Assembly: GCF_001747405.1 (NCBI RefSeq) | Contig: NZ_CP017305.1 | Span: 1,816,001-1,880,000, forward strand | From: Chlorobaculum limnaeum | GTDB lineage: Bacteria > Bacteroidota > Chlorobiia > Chlorobiales > Chlorobiaceae | Length of the DNA: 64,000 nucleotides | Direction of reading: 5' to 3' | Part shown: piece after piece, positions 23,520 through 41,663 of the stretch | Position numbering within the stretch: position 1 is the stretch's first letter | Layout: each line of letters opens with the position of its first letter | Position numbers and translations under genes: made by a program | The notes under the pieces: generated by a model | What the model was told of the DNA's origin: nothing | The model's input: only the letters and a program-made list of their open reading frames with translations | Database searches by the model: none

Positions 23520-24876
23520 GGCTCTTCGCAGAATTTAATGGTCTGGTAGTAAAAATGAGTGGCTTGGTGTAATTTATCCAAGAACGCCAAAACACTAACC
23601 CCAACGTATGCCGAGCCTCATTACCCATTACCAGCAGTTATTAGGATTACCAGAAACATGGAAGGTGTCGGATGTCCGGCTGTCGATGTCCGGCCCCCGG
23701 ATAGAAATCCATCTGGAGTATATCGGATCCAAAGTCGAATGCCCTGAATGCGGCAAGGCCGGACGAATTTATGACCTGGCGCCAGAACAACGGTGGCGGC
23801 ATCTGGATACCATGGAGTACGAGACGCATCTGATAGCCAGGGTGCCTCGGTGTGAGTGCAAAGAGCACAGGATCAAGACAATTAAAGTTCCGTGGGCAAC
23901 GCGCTATTCGCGCTACACCCTGAAGTTTGAAGCGCTTGCTGTCGAGTTGCTTCAGGAGTGTTCAAGCATTCAGTCGGCATCGAGGCTCTTGCGATTGAAC
24001 TGGCATGCAACCAACGAGATCATGAACCGTGCGGTTAAGCGAGGCCTGAGCCGCCGGAATAAGGAGGCGATTGCTCATCTTGGTCTTGATGAAAAGAGCT
24101 TCCGGGCAGGCCATCAGTATGTGACGATCCTGAACGACCTGAAAGGTGGCCGGGTACTTGAGGTGGTCCAGAGCCGAACGACCGATGGAGCAGAAGCGCT
24201 ACTCCTCAGCTTTGAAGCATCGCAACGCCAGGGTGTGAAATCGATCTCGATGGATATGTGGAAACCCTTCGCGATTGCTGCCAAAAAGCATCTGCCGCAG
24301 GCCGATATTGTGCATGACCGTTTCCATATCAGCAAATATCTGAACGAGGCGGTCGACACGGTTCGTCGCCAAGAGTCCCGTCAACTTCATCATGCAGGGG
24401 ACAGGACTCTGATTGGCTCGAAATTCACCTGGCTGCGCAATCCGGAGAACATGACGGAAAGCCAGCGGACAAGCTTTGATCAATTGATGGCCTGTGAGCT
24501 GAAAACCGGAAAAGCCTGGTCGATGAAAAACATGTTTCGGGAGTTCTGGCGGCTGGGTTGTCGAGAGAGTGCAAGCTTCTTTTTCGATTACTGGTCTGAA
24601 CGCGTTGACCAGTTAGCGTTGAAACCCATGATCAAGGTCAAAGAGCTGCTGAAGCGGCATCTCGACAACATCCTGAACTATTTCGAGCACGAAATGACCA
24701 ACGCAGTTTCCGAAGGTCTGAATAGCAAGATCCAGTTGTACAAAGCATCGGCCCGTGGGTTCCACAGCTTTCACAGCTACCGCATAAGGATTTTGTTTTA
24801 CTGTGGAAAGCTCAACATGGCTATTACCGGTTGAGTAATTGATGACGAGCGCTACCATTAAATCTTACGAAGAACC
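23520..24876. mobile_element. ISL3-family insertion sequence, both ends present
   Basis: About 1357 bp. The left end (23520-23542) and right end (24854-24876) form 23-bp terminal inverted repeats matching at 19 positions (GG.TCTTCG.A..ATTTAATGGT). One full transposase gene lies between. I see no clear 8-bp target duplication at the flanks (AAATTTAT left, AAAAACAA right), so the insertion may be old or one end imprecise. Confidence 0.85.
23608..24834 (+). CDS. ISL3-family transposase
   Basis: 408 residues, the usual size. An N-terminal zinc-finger-like region (CPEC at 45-48, then CEC at 82-84) and a helix-turn-helix precede the DDE catalytic domain. Candidate acidic residues are Asp161 (HLGLDEKSF), Asp216 (ISMDMWKPF) and Glu in AVSEGLNSKIQ. 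The C terminus RGFHSFHSYRIRILFYCGKL is characteristic of ISL3. The frame is intact, so the element may still be mobile. Confidence 0.94.
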   Translation: MPSLITHYQQLLGLPETWKVSDVRLSMSGPRIEIHLEYIGSKVECPECGKAGRIYDLAPEQRWRHLDTMEYETHLIARVPRCECKEHRIKTIKVPWATRYSRYTLKFEALAVELLQECSSIQSASRLLRLNWHATNEIMNRAVKRGLSRRNKEAIAHLGLDEKSFRAGHQYVTILNDLKGGRVLEVVQSRTTDGAEALLLSFEASQRQGVKSISMDMWKPFAIAAKKHLPQADIVHDRFHISKYLNEAVDTVRRQESRQLHHAGDRTLIGSKFTWLRNPENMTESQRTSFDQLMACELKTGKAWSMKNMFREFWRLGCRESASFFFDYWSERVDQLALKPMIKVKELLKRHLDNILNYFEHEMTNAVSEGLNSKIQLYKASARGFHSFHSYRIRILFYCGKLNMAITG

Positions 24877-25764: not shown

Positions 25765-27105
25765 ATGCTCAAATCTTTGCTGCGTATTTTCAGCCTGCGC
25801 CAGGACGCGGAGGCATTCGATGCCGTCCACAACGCCGTCGAGGCGGACATCGTGTTTCGCGGCGCGCGCATCTGGGTGCTGATTTCAGCCATCATCCTCG
25901 CCTCGGTCGGCCTGAACATGAACTCCACGGCGGTCATCATCGGCGCGATGCTGATTTCGCCCCTCATGGGGCCGATCAACGGCATGGGCTACAGCCTGGC
26001 CACCTACGATTTTCCGCTGCTCCGGCGATCGTTCAAGAACTTCTCGTTCGCGGTGGCGTCGAGCCTGGTCGCCTCGACCCTCTATTTCGCCATCACGCCG
26101 CTTTCCAGCGCCCACTCCGAGTTACTGGCGCGCACGAGCCCAACGATCTACGACGTGCTGATCGCGCTTTTCGGTGGTCTGGCGGGTTCGATTTCGCTCA
26201 CAACGAAGCTCAAGGGCAACGTGGTGCCGGGCGTGGCCATCGCCACGGCGCTCATGCCGCCGCTCTGTACGGCGGGCTACGGCGTGGCGACCGGTCAGTT
26301 CAGCTTCTTTTTCGGAGCGCTCTACCTGTTCACGATCAACAGCGTTTTTATCGCTCTGGCCAACGCTGGCTTCGCGCGGGTGATGCGCATTCCGCTGCGT
26401 ACGACGCTCGATGAGGAGAAGCGTGCCCGCATCAATCACATGATCACGGCGGTGATTCTCGTCACGCTGATTCCGAGCGTCTATTTTGGCTACGTGCTTG
26501 TCAGGAAAGAGCGTTTTATCGACACGGCCACGCGCTTTGCACGCACCGTGAGTCTTTTCAAAGGTGATTTTCTGCTTCGATACGAGATCGATGGCGACGC
26601 TCGCGCGATTACGCTGGTCTATGGCGGCCATCCGCTGACCGGCGATGACAAGGCGGAGCTGAACCGGCGGGCCGAGGCGTTCGGGCTTGAAAACGCGACG
26701 CTTAAGTTCCAGCAGGGGCTGGTGATCACCAACGGCGAGGAGTATCTCGACAAACTGAACCAGATGGCGGAGACGGATCGCCAGAAGCTCGAAATCGCCC
26801 GGCTCAACGCTGCGTTGCAAGCGAACATTCGCCAGCAGGACAGCCTGCGACAGGTCAGTTATACCGGCCTGAAGCTGCTCAGAGAGCTCAAGCCGCTTTT
26901 CCCGCATATCACGAGCTGCCTCTACGCCGAACCCTGGCTCTTTTCGGACAGCACGGGAGCCAAGCCCCGGCAAAGGAGCTACGTGCTTCTCTCGGCGTTA
27001 AAACCCGTCAACCGGGCTGACCGCGCGAAAGTGGAGCGCTGGCTCAAAGCGAGGTTGCAGAACGACAGCCTCCGCGTGGTGTTTGAGGGGAACGGGGAGC
27101 AGTGA
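25765..27105 (+). CDS. DUF389 family integral membrane protein
   Basis: 446 residues. Six or more hydrophobic segments lie in the first 245 residues, with the DUF389 signature: WVLISAIILASVGLNMNSTA, then VIIGAMLISPLMGPINGMGY and KGNVVPGVAIATALMPPLCT. A soluble C-terminal region of about 200 residues includes a coiled-coil-like stretch (EIARLNAALQANIRQQDSLR). Function of DUF389 is not established; it is widespread in bacteria. The adjacent upstream gene on the same strand is of unknown function. Confidence 0.88.
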   Translation: MLKSLLRIFSLRQDAEAFDAVHNAVEADIVFRGARIWVLISAIILASVGLNMNSTAVIIGAMLISPLMGPINGMGYSLATYDFPLLRRSFKNFSFAVASSLVASTLYFAITPLSSAHSELLARTSPTIYDVLIALFGGLAGSISLTTKLKGNVVPGVAIATALMPPLCTAGYGVATGQFSFFFGALYLFTINSVFIALANAGFARVMRIPLRTTLDEEKRARINHMITAVILVTLIPSVYFGYVLVRKERFIDTATRFARTVSLFKGDFLLRYEIDGDARAITLVYGGHPLTGDDKAELNRRAEAFGLENATLKFQQGLVITNGEEYLDKLNQMAETDRQKLEIARLNAALQANIRQQDSLRQVSYTGLKLLRELKPLFPHITSCLYAEPWLFSDSTGAKPRQRSYVLLSALKPVNRADRAKVERWLKARLQNDSLRVVFEGNGEQ

Positions 27106-27193
27106 TGATTTTTTTACCGACCAGTTGAGTTTTTGGTCGTCTTTGAAGAATTAGCAAAACACGCTTTCCGTTTTTCTGTCTTCTTGCGAAATG

Positions 27194-27246
27194 CAACAGT
27201 CTAATTGACTGCCTTAGTGTAGGTGAGGAAGTCAATTAGACTGTTG
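27194..27246. repeat. 17-bp perfect inverted repeat with 19-base spacer
   Basis: Arms 27194-27210 (CAACAGTCTAATTGACT) and 27230-27246 are exact reverse complements. They lie between the converging DUF389 and DUF2290 genes. There is no T run on either side, so an ordinary intrinsic terminator is not certain; it may be a bidirectional stop or a mobile-element relic. Confidence 0.85.
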
Positions 27247-27280
27247 TATGTTAAGTCTGGGTGAACATCGGAATTCAATT

Positions 27281-27949
27281 TTACCGAGTCGCTAAAACGA
27301 CGTGTGGAATCTTTTGCTCGTTGGGGCTGATAGTTTGAGCAAATCGAAATTTTGGCGCAGGGATGTCGTCAGAAAATTTACGAAATACTGTGTTATAGAA
27401 ATTGCGAAGTATGAAACCACCAAAGGCAAGAGGGCTAACAGGAGAACATACAGGAATCCTACAATTTTTGTATTGACCAAGTGTCAAATGAGAATATGGA
27501 TGATCCACATCAACGTAGCGTGCCTCGTCAGCATTGAAATCAAAGCGTATTGGAAAGGGGACGATATTTCGTTCAACAATATCCGCATAAATGTCGTCTG
27601 AAAGGTAAATCTCTGGCTCGTTCTGAAATTGCTCTAAATCAGGCGATGGAAAATAGCCGAGATTATGTTCAACCAATTTTCCCGCCTCAAATCGATATCG
27701 AAGACAAACCAAAGCACCATCGAGAAGCTTCATATTGAAGCAATTCGCATCAGATAGCGTACTGTAAATATCTCGATACGAGACATTCCTTAATGCAACT
27801 GTGAGCGCACCTGCGTTCTTAACAGTGATCTCGAAATTGGATTTTGGATCGCCATGAGTTGAGGGGAAGTTCTGCTCGTTTGATAGACTCAGGCCAACTA
27901 AGTTGGCGGTAAGTGCCTCGATCTCAGAAAGTGTGTCAGTTGCTCTCAT
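27281..27949 (-). CDS. DUF2290 protein, partner of the helicase (anti-phage candidate)
   Basis: 222 residues. The block DHPYSHLTLGQYKNCRIPV, followed by SPLAFGGFILRNFYNT, is the hallmark of DUF2290. An N-terminal part with RYRFEAGKLVEHNLGYFPSP precedes it. It begins 10 bp after the helicase stop, so the two form one operon. DUF2290 next to an SF1 helicase is the composition of the Helicase-DUF2290 anti-phage system described from phage and satellite hotspots (family knowledge). Biochemical role of DUF2290 is not known to me. Codon use is A/T-richer than the core genes, supporting transfer. Confidence 0.85.
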   Translation of the reverse strand: MRATDTLSEIEALTANLVGLSLSNEQNFPSTHGDPKSNFEITVKNAGALTVALRNVSYRDIYSTLSDANCFNMKLLDGALVCLRYRFEAGKLVEHNLGYFPSPDLEQFQNEPEIYLSDDIYADIVERNIVPFPIRFDFNADEARYVDVDHPYSHLTLGQYKNCRIPVCSPVSPLAFGGFILRNFYNTVFRKFSDDIPAPKFRFAQTISPNEQKIPHVVLATR

Positions 27950-27959
27950 GGGATTGGTC

Positions 27960-30098
27960 TCACTTTCTTATGCTGTTCAAGAAATTCTGTAGTTTCTTGA
28001 CGGTATCTTCCGGGTAATCCTCAATAAACGTTTCCCCCGATTCAAGGGACTCAAGCAAGTCCTGCAATGTATGTTGTTTCTGATCAAGTCGCTCTTTTTC
28101 AGTTCTTGACATGTCCCGATTGACGATAGTCATTTTTTGACGTTGACCCTCGGTCGGATAATCAAATGAGAGCTTAAAACCCGAAGCTTTAACACTTTCA
28201 AATTCTTCTTTTAATGCCACCATATTAGGACCAACTCCTAATACGCGGACCCAAGCTTTACTACGGGTGATCGCGGTGAAAAGGCGATTGCGAACACGGG
28301 CAAGATCACGTGGCAGAATAGCTGAAAAACAGTCTTGCGCATTAATGATGTAAACCATTCCAGCTTCATTACCCTTAGCCCGAAAAATACCAGTGAATGT
28401 TACAGTCCCTGGTTCTGAAAAGATGTCTGCCGAGTTTGTCACACCAGCAAGATTGGAGTTGACCCCTTTCTGCAAGAGCGCTCGTCGCGCAGAGCCAACA
28501 GCCTCCTTGGTCGTTAATGGATTTGGATTAATGACGATAATGTCATCCGGTAGTAACTCATCCTTGGTAAGGTTCTCAAGGACACACTCAACTAACCGGT
28601 CAATTTGAGCCTCATTTGAGTCAAAAACCTCGAAAGAAATCAGATCATCAATTGAGGAATGCTTTTCTAAAAAATCAGGGCTAGATTCCGAAGTTCTCTC
28701 AAGAGTAACCCTCTTCCCATCAACAAGTTCCCCTTTTGTTACTGAGTAGCCCACATCAAGCCAGAGATGACTGTTTTCGAAAATCTGAACTAATCCTTTT
28801 TGGCGATAGATTCCAAAGCCCAATGCATGCGCCGTTGTCAACACCGGGCGAGAGTTGCGATAACAAGTATCAAGAACAATGTCCTGTTTCGGTTTGCCTG
28901 GCTCTTTTGGATACAGAATCACACGGGGTGTTCCATCAGATTTTTTACCAAAGATATCCTCCATTGGAGGGAGTGAACGCATACCGAGATTCTGGAGCTC
29001 GTCATATGCGTAAACAAGGCGTTTTGGTTCTTTTAAAAGTTCATAACAAAGCAGCAAAAAGTTAGGAGCGAAATCTTGGGCTTCATCGACGAAAATCGCA
29101 TCATACTTTGGGATAAATTGCTTAGCACTCTCCAGAGCAATGTCGCATGCGTCTTCAAACTCCTTATTTCTAGAGAACTTCGCAAGGGCACTCCGATAGT
29201 CGAAATACTCGACACCATGGTCTCTGCAGAACTCGAAATAAATTCCTGCCCTTTCTTGTCCGCCTGGTGCTCCCCAAGCATTTAGAATTCTAACCTTATC
29301 CCAATCAGGTTCAGCATTAGCCTGTTCCAGTACAAATGTTGTGATCAGTGTCTCAAACTGTTTTTTGAGAGAACGTGTATGAAAAGTGACCGCAATGTCC
29401 CAATCAGGGTGCCTGGCGTGCAAATAGGCGACTTTCAGTGCTAAAACGATTGTTTTTCCAGAGCCAGCCAGCCCTCGAATCCGTTGAACGCCCTCGAATG
29501 TTTCAACAACCGCAGCACTTTGCTGCATATCAAGGTTTGCAATTGAGTCTTCGAGTGCTTTGATTTTAGTTCCTTTGGAATTGGGATCTTTGATGTCACG
29601 TCTGCGACGACCACGGCGAAGGGTTGAAATGGCCTGAATAACCGCAACCAGCCGAACAAAAATGTCGTCATCTTGGTCATCCAAGGTATTGATTGTAGCA
29701 ATCAGATTATGTGTGTTGCAAAGAGGATAGTCTTCAGTTGAGTAGGACTCAAGATTTGCCACAGCTGGCGCAAATGTCACAGTGTGGATATTGACTCTGA
29801 GTTTTCGTTTCCGAATAAGTGTTTGGTGCTGAAGGAGTTTTGCCTGCATTTTATTGAATGCCTCGTCCTGCCCATTTGCATATTCACCAATTTCTCTACC
29901 TTCAATCAGGTTGAACAAGATTAACCCTTTCTGTGGCGATACCAAGAGGGCGTCAATTGGAAATGATCCATCGGGTGTTCCTATGATCGGATATCCGATG
30001 TATAGCGTCCCTTCAAGTTCATGCTCAGAAGAGATTGTTAGTGCCAACTGCTTGCTGGATACAGGTTTTACGGTGCTACCCCAAACGGTATTGATCAT
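27960..30098 (-). CDS. SF1 DNA/RNA helicase of a Helicase-DUF2290 defence locus
   Basis: 712 residues; ATG at 30098 with AGGAT seven bases upstream. The N-terminal 100 residues (GTPDGSFPIDALLVSPQKG, LFNLIEG) recall a NERD nuclease fold, but the usual catalytic E-x-K is not evident. The helicase core has Walker A GLAGSGKT (209-216), Walker B IFVDEAQDF (335-343), motif IV-like DTCYRNSRP (410-418) and motif VI RNRLFTAITRSK (603-614), the UvrD/Rep-like set with a QxxR-type arginine finger. The last 60 residues are charged and coiled. First gene of a two-gene operon with DUF2290; together they most likely form an anti-phage system. Confidence 0.86.
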   Translation of the reverse strand: MINTVWGSTVKPVSSKQLALTISSEHELEGTLYIGYPIIGTPDGSFPIDALLVSPQKGLILFNLIEGREIGEYANGQDEAFNKMQAKLLQHQTLIRKRKLRVNIHTVTFAPAVANLESYSTEDYPLCNTHNLIATINTLDDQDDDIFVRLVAVIQAISTLRRGRRRRDIKDPNSKGTKIKALEDSIANLDMQQSAAVVETFEGVQRIRGLAGSGKTIVLALKVAYLHARHPDWDIAVTFHTRSLKKQFETLITTFVLEQANAEPDWDKVRILNAWGAPGGQERAGIYFEFCRDHGVEYFDYRSALAKFSRNKEFEDACDIALESAKQFIPKYDAIFVDEAQDFAPNFLLLCYELLKEPKRLVYAYDELQNLGMRSLPPMEDIFGKKSDGTPRVILYPKEPGKPKQDIVLDTCYRNSRPVLTTAHALGFGIYRQKGLVQIFENSHLWLDVGYSVTKGELVDGKRVTLERTSESSPDFLEKHSSIDDLISFEVFDSNEAQIDRLVECVLENLTKDELLPDDIIVINPNPLTTKEAVGSARRALLQKGVNSNLAGVTNSADIFSEPGTVTFTGIFRAKGNEAGMVYIINAQDCFSAILPRDLARVRNRLFTAITRSKAWVRVLGVGPNMVALKEEFESVKASGFKLSFDYPTEGQRQKMTIVNRDMSRTEKERLDQKQHTLQDLLESLESGETFIEDYPEDTVKKLQNFLNSIRK

Positions 30099-30431
30099 AA
30101 TTATATCCTGTTGCTGATAACTGTTTCAATCGGTCACATCAAAATCGAAAGACGCTACGTTTTTTTTTGCGTTTCAGTTTTGACCGCTTTAATGCGAGCT
30201 TACGATCATGAACTTTGACGTGGTTTATCCTTTTTTTATGCTCGATCTAATGAGGTTTTGGTTCATGTAACTCTCTCAGATTGCTTTGGCTCTTTGCTCG
30301 TGCCACTATTGACTATGCAAATGTAAGTATACGCATATGTTTTTCAGCATTCCTGCGTACAAAAATATGCGAAGACGGAAATTGGCTGGCTTAACGGGAC
30401 GCCTTTGAAAAGCCGCCCCGCTTTGCCTGAC
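30099..30431. other. Intergenic region, helicase promoter and torD terminator
   Basis: About 330 bases, A/T-rich on the helicase side (30100-30360). Near 30395-30420 an imperfect hairpin with CGGG/CCCG ends sits just after the torD-like stop and could end the psr operon transcript. No reading frame stands out. Confidence 0.5.
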
Positions 30432-30998
30432 TCAGGGCTTGGGGCGCAGTGGCGTGAGGGTATTTTCCATCACCTCCCCCAGCAGCCGGTACGCATCCAG
30501 CGTCGCCCCGGCTTGCAGGTCAGCGGTGAATTGTGGCGTCCAGCGGCTCATGTGCTGTTGCGTGAAGCGTTCCGAGGCTTTGCGGGCGTCTGCGCTCACA
30601 GCGTTGTCGAGCGACTCGGCGGAGGCGAGGAAGGCGAGGAATTCGAGTTCGGTGGCGAGGTGGTCGATGAGGCCCGGCTCGACCGACATCTCCCATTCGG
30701 CGTAGGCGGCCTGCACTGCGACGGTGGACTCTCCATGCATCCGTTTTTCGAGGTAGACCGACTCGTAGGGCGGGCAAACGGTGCGCGGGTAGCCGTTGAG
30801 GAAGAGGCGCGTGTATTCGGCTTGCAACGTCTCGGCATCCTCCCGCTCGAAGGCGGCGACGAGGGCGAGCAGTTCGTCGCGATTTGCCTCGATCTTTTCG
30901 AGCGCCTCGCGCAGGGCGGGGATGAACGCTTCGTTCGGGTAGGCGAGGCAGCGGCTGAGGAATTTGTAGCGGAGCGCTTTCTGGAGTGGCGTGGTCAT
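30432..30998 (-). CDS. TorD/DmsD-family molybdoenzyme chaperone
   Basis: 188 residues. Family features: all-helical composition, the block EYTRLFLNGYPRTVCPPYESVYLEK (here split by positions 60-84) in which the YxRLF and PPYESVY elements bind the substrate's signal peptide, and DHLATELEFLAFL in the second half. TorD-type proteins hold the twin-arginine signal of a molybdopterin enzyme until cofactor is inserted. It closes the psr-like operon, 78 bp after psrC, matching the Tat-signal-bearing PsrA. Confidence 0.9.
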   Translation of the reverse strand: MTTPLQKALRYKFLSRCLAYPNEAFIPALREALEKIEANRDELLALVAAFEREDAETLQAEYTRLFLNGYPRTVCPPYESVYLEKRMHGESTVAVQAAYAEWEMSVEPGLIDHLATELEFLAFLASAESLDNAVSADARKASERFTQQHMSRWTPQFTADLQAGATLDAYRLLGEVMENTLTPLRPKP

Positions 30999-38843: not shown

Positions 38844-39515
38844 TCAAGCTCCTTTTTGGGCAGTTGGATCCCAAACGTCAATTTGGTATCCTCTTGACTT
38901 CAAACGTGTAGTTGCGATCTTATATTTTCTAGCAAAATAGAGGCTAGTTATGTTGTTGCCTGCAATACGATCATACTCCTCACAGTGCTCTCTAAGTCGC
39001 TTGATATATGCCGCAACTATCCCAAATGTCTCAAAACTCAATATTTTTTTCGGGTAATCACCAGGCATCAAATTTAAACTGTTCGCACCATTCTTAATGT
39101 CATGCACTGATGGAATGACTTCTTTCCACTCAAGCATCGTCGGACTAAAAAGAGCATCTGCCCCAAGGCGTTGAACTGAATTTGTTTTGGTGATGATATT
39201 TACAGTGATTTGAGAAAGAGTTGATTCGATATCTGACTCTATATGCTCAATGAAGCGGAGCAAGTCGATTTTATGCCCTTGCGCGGTTATCCTCTCGATT
39301 TCACTTCGATGTTCTTTATCCCTTTGAACCAAGGCAATTAATGCTGCAAGTACAGTCAGTGGCGTAACAACACCACCTATATAAGTGCCAAATGATGCGA
39401 GGCGTTGATGCCCTTCTATATTCCCAGGCAAAATGCCATAGACATAGAAAACTGCTATCAAAAAGGCAACAATAATTAAGAACACAACGATAATTTTTGT
39501 CACTGGACTTTTCAC
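38844..39515 (-). CDS. Putative phage abortive-infection membrane protein (putAbiC-like)
   Basis: 223 residues from the GTG at 39515, which has AGGAGG four bases upstream; an ATG at 39539 lacks a site. Two N-terminal membrane helices (KIIVVFLIIVAFLIAVFYVY; ASFGTYIGGVVTPLTVLAAL) are followed by a short helix (IALVQRDKEHRSEIERI) and a soluble C-terminal domain. The FGTYIGGVxxPLxxxxAxIAL arrangement resembles the PutAbiC family of putative phage abortive-infection proteins. Identification is by pattern only. A/T-rich coding sequence differs from rnr. Downstream of an orphan antitoxin gene on the same strand. Confidence 0.55.
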   Translation of the reverse strand: MKSPVTKIIVVFLIIVAFLIAVFYVYGILPGNIEGHQRLASFGTYIGGVVTPLTVLAALIALVQRDKEHRSEIERITAQGHKIDLLRFIEHIESDIESTLSQITVNIITKTNSVQRLGADALFSPTMLEWKEVIPSVHDIKNGANSLNLMPGDYPKKILSFETFGIVAAYIKRLREHCEEYDRIAGNNITSLYFARKYKIATTRLKSRGYQIDVWDPTAQKGA

Positions 39516-39573
39516 AATGCCTCCTGATTTGCCCAACATTGATTGGATAGTATCAGCATAAGACGCAGGGGGT

Positions 39574-39828
39574 TTATTTCTTTTTTATGGAGAAAAGAAA
39601 AGATCGTGTTTCAAAATTTTTCCACATCTTCGCAAAGACTTTATCACCAGGAATTGCCCCTACCTGACCAGAGCGCAGTTCTGCAAGACGACGTTGAGCT
39701 TCTGTGGCCCACTTTTTATCTATTTCCGATTCCGGCTGGTTCAGGCTGCGGAGCAGCGAATCCACTACGAATGCGCGTTTTTCAACCGGCAGCGACACCG
39801 CTTCATCAATAAGTTGCTTTGTAGTCAT
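39574..39828 (-). CDS. Addiction-module antitoxin-like protein (TIGR02574/PF09720 type)
   Basis: 84 residues. EAVSLPVEKRAFVVDSLLRSL, with Trp in IDKKWATEAQRRLAELRSG, is the pattern of the putative addiction-module component family that usually precedes a RelE/ParE toxin. Here no toxin frame follows; the next gene, 58 bp on, is the Abi-like membrane protein. The last residues (ETRSFLFSIKKK) are unlike the usual VxxRLR end, so the C terminus may be altered. Either an orphan antitoxin or a partner of the membrane protein. Confidence 0.7.
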   Translation of the reverse strand: MTTKQLIDEAVSLPVEKRAFVVDSLLRSLNQPESEIDKKWATEAQRRLAELRSGQVGAIPGDKVFAKMWKNFETRSFLFSIKKK

Positions 39829-40014
39829 TAGCTCACCTTAACCGCTGATTTGATTGCCTGTTCGCACGTACTCATTGGTAAAAATACAGCACAATATCCA
39901 ATTCTGCCAGTGGCATTTCGCTAATACTCGATAACCTGGTAGTCTTTTTGATTGTACCTGCCCAGTATTTATTGATTTCACCAAGCCACTACTACTCTCG
40001 AATAACAAGAATTC
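39829..40014. other. Intergenic, possible toxin remnant
   Basis: About 190 A/T-rich bases. On the minus strand the short stretch ATGCCACTGGCAGAATTGGA opens a 14-residue peptide (MPLAELDIVLYFYQ) reminiscent of a ParE/RelE start before a stop. Too short to call. Confidence 0.3.
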
Positions 40015-40117
40015 GTCATCGCGAGTCCCGACTTGTCGGGGCGTGGCGATCCATCTTCACGGCTTTCGCAGATTCTGCATGGATTGCCACGTCGCTCCGC
40101 TCCTCGCAATGACGGAA
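40015..40117. repeat. MITE-like palindromic repeat, copy 1
   Basis: 103 bases from GTCATCGCGAGTCCCGAC to CTCCTCGCAATGACGGAA. The two ends are imperfect inverted complements (GTCATCGCGAG/CTCGCAATGAC), and CGTGGCGATCCAT inside mirrors ATGGATTGCCACG. Repeated 26 bases later in the same orientation. Known style of dispersed non-coding repeat; its translation is often misannotated as protein. Confidence 0.88.
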
Positions 40118-40142
40118 TTCAATCACCGACTCCCTCTTCCAC

Positions 40143-40245
40143 GTCATCGCGAGTCCCGACTTGTCGGGGCGTGGCGATCCATCTTCACGGGCTTCGCAGA
40201 TGCTGCATGGATTGCCGCGTCGTTCCGCTCCTCGCAATGACGGAA
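40143..40245. repeat. MITE-like palindromic repeat, copy 2
   Basis: Near-identical to 40015-40117, direct tandem. Differences are a handful of single bases (for example CGGGCTTCGCAGATGC versus CGGCTTTCGCAGATTC). Its right edge abuts the original 3' end of the broken GIY-YIG gene. Confidence 0.88.
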
Positions 40246-40556
40246 TCATAATGAATCAATATTGTCATACAAATCTGACCATGACGGGTTCATGGTTTGA
40301 ATCAAATCTATTTCTTTTGGCGTGATCCGGACTTGAGCTGCTTTTCCCGATTGATTGCACTTTTCATCGTCTCATGTAGTTCATACCATACCAATCGATG
40401 TGTCTGATATTTTCTGGAAAATCCTTCAGCCAGATCATTCTTGTGTTGCCATATGCGTTTATGAAGGTCGCTTGTTACACCAACGTAAAGCGTTCCATTT
40501 GGTTTGTTGGCAAGAATATAGGTGCATGGCTGCTTTATCTGTATTTGTCTGTTCAT
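40246..40556 (-). pseudogene. GIY-YIG endonuclease-like protein with C-terminal frameshift
   Basis: The frame from 40556 gives 82 residues with a clear UPF0213-type GIY-YIG domain: CTYILANKPNGTLYVGVTSD, HKRIWQHKN, LVWYEL, INREKQLK. It stops at 40308 after SRQKK. One base added in the AAAA run at 40315-40318 restores a frame that continues EIDLIQTMNPSWSDLYDN to a stop at 40246, the normal family ending (about 103 residues). So either a recent one-base deletion or a sequence error. Single-domain GIY-YIG proteins of this type are small, poorly understood nucleases. Confidence 0.8.
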
Positions 40557-40615
40557 GAATTGCCTTGTAAAAAATTTGTCGCAAGTAAAGAGTGGATGGG
40601 CTTTTCTCGCAATCT

Positions 40616-40662
40616 GTCATCGCGAATTTCGATAGGTTGAAACGTGGCGACCCATTCCCATT
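40616..40662. repeat. Diverged half-copy of the MITE-like repeat
   Basis: GTCATCGCGAATTTC and CGTGGCGACCCATT recall the left half of the 40015 and 40143 repeats, with substitutions. Only part of the unit is recognisable. Confidence 0.5.
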
Positions 40663-40679
40663 GAGGCGTTATTCAACGC

Positions 40680-41362
<683 letters not shown>

Positions 41363-41663
41363 GTAATCCCCTCCGCCGTACAATTTTTTATTTCGATATT
41401 TTCATACAACATAAAAAATTGATTGAAAAATTTCCATTTGTGTGATAACGGAGTTTCGATTTTCGCCCTCATAGACGCATTCGCTTCAATCCAAAGCGGT
41501 CGGGCATTAGACGGCCTGATTGCAGATTTGCGATATGGAGCTGGTTTGTGACCGATATTCTGATTTTTGCGACGTATCGTTTACAGCGAACAGCAAATGC
41601 TGGTGAGAATATCCGCTCCTGCCAGTCATCTTGCGGACGGTCTGGCAGGGCCAGAGGCGTTAT
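41363..41663. other. Intergenic region after the photolyase gene
   Basis: About 300 bases, A/T-rich near 41380-41450, where the promoter of the membrane-protein gene should be. No further feature seen. Confidence 0.4.

Follow-up and report, generated by a model that had tools for sequence, protein, structure and literature searches.

Within the 64,000-nucleotide stretch of the Chlorobaculum limnaeum chromosome analysed here (the window), two adjacent genes encode a superfamily 1 (SF1) helicase and a small protein of the DUF2290 family (Table 1). Both open reading frames are intact and co-directional, with the helicase first and the DUF2290 gene 10 bp downstream, and both coordinates and spacing agree with a preliminary description of this DNA. 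The helicase matches PDLC03002, the Helicase model of the Helicase-DUF2290 system in PADLOC, with 1069.7 bits (E value 0) over residues 1-708 of 712, and contains UvrD_C_2 and UvrD-helicase matches in Pfam. Its partner matches PDLC02999 over its full length with 314.7 bits and Pfam PF10053 with 169.6 bits, where the cut-off is 25. These matches are not due to chance. The preliminary description had named PADLOC and DUF2290 profiles as the means of checking its assignment to Helicase-DUF2290; the matches are strong, models for this exact system cover both proteins at full length, and the assignment stands. We put the probability that the pair is a Helicase-DUF2290 system, and accessory in status, at roughly 95%. 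The host genome carries one copy. Helicase-DUF2290 is already known as an anti-phage system, of which the pair is a well-supported new member, in a new host genus.

Table 1. Features of the Helicase-DUF2290 locus and its surroundings, in window coordinates
Feature	Position	Strand	Basis
ISL3 transposase, in a low-GC stretch beside a PEP-CTERM protein gene	23608-24834		
Left border gene, DUF389 membrane protein	25765..27105	(+)	PF04087, 151 bits
Inverted repeat just downstream of the DUF2290 stop; 24-nt arms 92% complementary, 11-nt loop	27191..27249	(.)	
DUF2290 subunit, proposed effector, 222 aa	27281..27949	(-)	PF10053, PDLC02999, AF2
Most conserved DUF2290 part, aa 133-165, P-I-R-F-D-F ... 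H-P-x-S-H-x-T ... C-R-I; candidate active site	27455..27553	(-)	75 homologues and divergent set
Helicase subunit, SF1 (UvrD/Rep-like) with NERD-like N-terminal domain, 712 aa	27960..30098	(-)	PADLOC, Pfam, AF2
Helicase motif VI, RNRLFTAITRSK, aa 603-614	28257..28292	(-)	Sequence and 69-homologue alignment
Helicase motif II, DEAQDF, aa 338-343	29070..29087	(-)	Sequence and 69-homologue alignment
Helicase Walker A, GLAGSGKT, aa 209-216	29451..29474	(-)	Sequence; almost invariant in 69 homologues
Putative NERD-like region, about aa 1-110; D49 kept, E-x-K replaced by N63-x-I65	29769..30098	(-)	hhalign and column counts
Right border gene, molybdoenzyme chaperone/delta subunit (Nitrate_red_del family) of a Psr/Phs-type operon	30432..30998	(-)	PF02613, 107 bits

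Accessory status and chromosomal context

DUF2290 was present in three of 81 family genomes, within Chlorobaculum only, and the composition of the pair is not core-like, both of which accord with the accessory status proposed for it earlier. Conservation in every Chlorobiaceae genome with core-like composition, which the preliminary description had named as a ground for refutation, was therefore not observed. GC content is about 44% in the island and 54-65% in the DNA flanking it, so that the A/T-richness first remarked upon is confirmed, and GC at third codon positions is 0.38-0.41 in the pair compared to 0.80-0.84 in flanking genes. The locus loses its homology to relatives at 27087-27110 and regains it at 30175-30466, and the resulting 3-kb island contains the pair alone, the interval being without integrase or phage genes. 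No direct or inverted repeats link the two island edges, which leaves the island without identified att sites or a target-site duplication. An ISL3 element had been noted nearby, and its transposase does lie 2.4 kb from the pair, though the core-like DUF389 gene intervenes; because this conserved gene separates the two, the element was rejected as the vehicle or boundary of the island. The inverted repeat that follows the DUF2290 gene is AU-rich and without a T-run, folds as RNA at -31 kcal/mol (z -6.65), and is likely to be a transcript-end hairpin; it occurs at a single place in the genome and is not a repeated element. Elsewhere in the window, a second low-GC stretch (38844-41383, 42-47%) contains two small predicted membrane proteins of 231 and 182 aa, neither matching a Pfam family above cut-off, and could be another accessory insertion.

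Both proteins are 95% identical to their counterparts in C. thiosulfatiphilum, which occupy the same locus. Divergence at four-fold sites between the two species is 17-20% in the pair and 18-33% in flanking genes, values that would fit both shared descent and later exchange with C. thiosulfatiphilum and do not separate them. Another genome of the genus (G001) possesses a second pair, approximately 43% identical, at a different locus immediately following recB- and recD-like genes (L053 6157-9208), so the system has probably entered the genus on two or more occasions.

The genes bordering the island are convergent, such that insertions between the DUF389 and delta-subunit genes break nothing. 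These borders lie 1.9-9.5 kb apart on one contig in eight Chlorobaculum genomes, and the contents of the interval (27106-30431 in the host; L045-L051 in relatives) were assigned using PADLOC and Pfam. Helicase-DUF2290 occupies it in the host and in C. thiosulfatiphilum (G016). In G009 it contains SIR2, HerA and a DUF3800 protein; in G010, a YoeB-like toxin-antitoxin pair and a Lamassu-like LmuA-LmuC-LmuB (ABC-three-component) system; in G002, a GajA-GajB Gabija system with a histidine kinase and a multihaem cytochrome; and in G012, a 660-aa Schlafen-group-3 helicase matching the PADLOC candidate PDC-S41 with 947 bits (L051 2112-4094). Short open reading frames without assignment are found in G003, and cation-ATPase and PTS pieces in G017. 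Of the eight resolved Chlorobaculum genomes, six have a complete defence system in the interval, either known or candidate, and five different kinds are represented. The same borders were not found as neighbours in the more distant family genomes sampled. The interval is likely to represent a newly seen chromosomal defence hotspot in Chlorobaculum, with an enrichment that is descriptive and not statistical.

Conservation and spread of the gene pair

The helicase and DUF2290 genes are kept together as a unit. The helicase precedes DUF2290 on one strand, adjacent to it and with a gap of -53 to +77 bp, at 83 of the 84 loci having both genes (one genome being counted twice), and the helicase reading frame is interrupted at the exceptional locus. 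DUF2290 occurs without a recognised helicase reading frame at six loci, three near contig starts and the others being L108, L129 and L139. Distance matrices for the two proteins are correlated with r = 0.876, where the best of 1000 permutations reached 0.14.

In a tree built from both proteins joined together, the host pair stands beside that of C. thiosulfatiphilum, followed by a cyanobacterial metagenome-assembled genome (MAG). Phyla are mixed in many places across this tree, which fits horizontal spread, with the qualification that contig assignments in MAGs are uncertain. A search of phage records for DUF2290 returned no match, so that a phage origin of the pair is not supported, and matches to plasmids exist. 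On a plasmid of Thioflavicoccus mobilis (L064 2630-5483) the pair sits inside a BREX cluster, between genes for a DNA methyltransferase and a PglZ-domain protein.

Sequence and structure of the two proteins

All seven SF1 motifs (I, Ia and II-VI) are conserved in an alignment of 69 helicase homologues, including the three that the preliminary description had located in the protein, and by this measure none of the motor motifs has been lost from the helicase. Its AlphaFold (AF2) model (pLDDT 84.5) finds fold matches in the PDB with SLFN11, Dna2 and UvrD/PcrA. The N terminus is matched by NERD profiles weakly and not significantly, with hmmscan hits in two of 69 members and a best E value of 0.086; when profiles were compared with hhalign, residues 35-66 aligned in register, over 31 columns, with seven NERD domains of related genomes (E value 4.4e-4, probability 33%). 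D49 aligns with the catalytic aspartate of NERD and is invariant, and 68 of 69 members retain E66, Q77 and D78. The catalytic E-x-K of the D...E-x-K signature, which could not be seen when the sequence was initially described, is missing from the helicase and from the aligned columns of all 69 homologues: column 63 is D, N, H, S or C and never E, while column 65 is V, I, D or E and never K. The domain is unlikely to be a nuclease for this reason. It looks to be a catalytically degenerate NERD-like domain, a rearranged active site being less likely.

The AF2 model of the DUF2290 protein has a pLDDT of 87 and a pTM of 0.85, yet a fold search against the PDB and viral models produced no match at E<=0.001, and the DUF2290 profile gave one chance-level match to PDB sequences. 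Eleven residues are invariant in 75 homologues (Y58, D77, Y85, R135, D137, H150, H154, C163, R164, Y185 and E211), and H95 and H216 are conserved in more than 90% of them. D77, H95, R135, D137, H150, H154, R164 and H216 are all invariant among ten more divergent sequences as well, actinobacterial and BREX-linked plasmid members included. Within the most conserved part of the protein, R135/D137 and H154/T156 occupy alternating positions on predicted strands and could thus face one side. This pattern of conservation suggests an active site; DUF2290 may instead have a role in structure, nucleotide binding or regulation, given that the fold matches nothing known, which counts against DUF2290 being an effector.

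Mechanism and relationship to known systems

The function of the system has been approached in two relatives. One such pair of helicase and DUF2290 confers specific inhibition of T7, the sole phage reported, in E. coli (Rousset 2022, PMC9122126). In Pseudomonas aeruginosa PAO1, PA1372 (the helicase) and PA1371 have been assigned to Helicase-DUF2290 (PMC11637435). Loss of PA1372 abolishes the SOS response to plasmid pNUK73 and the fitness cost of carrying it, both of which depend on the plasmid Rep protein, and lowers expression of the plasmid rep gene; the helicase mutant has no phenotype without the plasmid, and helicase and kinase mutations are not general adaptations to other plasmids (PMC4410645). 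Inhibition of T7 and the PAO1 plasmid data together suggest that the helicase engages foreign replication. By analogy with these relatives the Chlorobaculum copy would have an anti-phage role, and the best explanation for the pair is a horizontally acquired anti-phage system that is also probably active against plasmids.

We propose that the helicase and DUF2290 work as a single unit. The ATP-driven helicase, helped by its degenerate NERD-like domain, would load onto abnormal DNA ends or replication intermediates derived from phage or plasmid, and its loading would activate or release DUF2290. As the effector, DUF2290 would carry out the catalysis, most likely as a metal-dependent nuclease or another type of hydrolase, and its activity would block replication of the invader or arrest the cell. 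We consider this proposal, with a helicase that senses abnormal replication intermediates and a catalytic partner acting as one unit, about as likely to be right as wrong. A more far-reaching reading is tentative and merits rather less than even odds: that DUF2290 is an enzyme of a fold absent from the PDB, with an Arg-Asp/His-rich active site, and is switched on as effector by a helicase that has encountered replication intermediates of a phage or plasmid. The link to Rep in PAO1 runs through raised rep expression, and the helicase and kinase mutations there are not general adaptations to other plasmids (PMC4410645), which is a poor straightforward fit with a nuclease that attacks plasmids.

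The same defence system might instead operate through the helicase itself, which would displace or unwind invading forks, with DUF2290 as a non-catalytic regulator, inhibitor or target-recognition subunit. The conserved helicase motifs, the sufficiency of helicase loss alone to end the plasmid conflict in PAO1 (PMC4410645) and the failure of the DUF2290 fold to match a nuclease all speak for such an arrangement; DUF2290 has more invariant charged and histidine residues than would be expected of a scaffold, and on balance we think it somewhat unlikely. Catalysis could otherwise reside in the NERD-like domain, as a nuclease whose active site has been rearranged around D49 and polar residue 63, E66 or D78. 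The PD-(D/E)xK fold tolerates migrated catalytic residues, which favours this idea, as do the invariance of D49, the near-complete retention of E66, Q77 and D78, and a residue 63 that is nearly always polar. Set against these, the canonical lysine position is without lysine in every member and E66 is lost in L062 and L064, the two most distant of the members compared over that region, making a NERD nuclease improbable.

It is very improbable that the pair has no defensive role in Chlorobaculum and either serves in housekeeping DNA repair or is an insertion undergoing decay. The plasmid-free PAO1 helicase mutant, being free of a phenotype (PMC4410645), would be consistent with this, but the reading frames are intact and 95% identical to those at the same locus in C. 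thiosulfatiphilum, the pair is rare and patchy, and the same interval in relatives holds other complete defence systems. The mechanism of Helicase-DUF2290 is narrowed to a protein whose NERD-like domain looks catalytically dead and a partner that carries enzyme-like conserved residues on a fold without solved relatives. The connection with the plasmid-cost literature of PAO1 supplies a ready assay for the system, and the likely hotspot can be mined for new systems in the green sulfur bacteria, a group with few mapped defence loci.

The Chlorobaculum pair resembles Rst_HelicaseDUF2290 (PMC9122126) in its full-length model matches, adjacent genes and position in a hotspot of variable defence systems, as in P4 satellites; unlike that phage satellite system, it lies in a likely chromosomal hotspot without an integrase or phage gene. 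PA1372-PA1371, likened to it by published assignment, is also a two-gene system in a low-GC island near a transposase and rare in its species, and it is the PAO1 pair that is known for making plasmid pNUK73 costly. Gabija (GajA-GajB) shares a UvrD-like SF1 helicase, and GajB profiles match weakly (29 bits), but here the partner is DUF2290, PADLOC matched no GajA/OLD-type nuclease beside the helicase, and a genuine Gabija sits in the hotspot of G002. A putative NERD-like N terminus joined to an SF1 core recalls NERD-UvrD helicases (PADLOC C3a187, 46.7 bits) and the STM2767 family (NCBIfam NF053713), although the 105 bits for the latter fall far under its 550-bit cut-off and the Chlorobaculum helicase is without the catalytic E-x-K. 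A hotspot described in Prosthecochloris (PMC10158934) likewise concerns green sulfur bacteria whose phage defence systems vary and replace one another between conserved genes, but it is a different locus in a different genus, between acetyltransferase and methyltransferase genes, and DUF2290 is not mentioned there. Hachiman (HamA-HamB, PMC12278908) also combines a helicase with a small partner of formerly unknown function, and offers a functional model in which the helicase acts as sensor and keeps a nuclease under control. In contrast to Hachiman, the Chlorobaculum helicase is a UvrD-like SF1 enzyme and DUF2290 has no nuclease match; neither protein matched the HamA or HamB models in PADLOC up to an E value of 1. 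If DUF2290 is indeed an enzyme of a fold absent from the PDB that its helicase switches on, Helicase-DUF2290 would be a mechanistic parallel to Hachiman made of unrelated parts.
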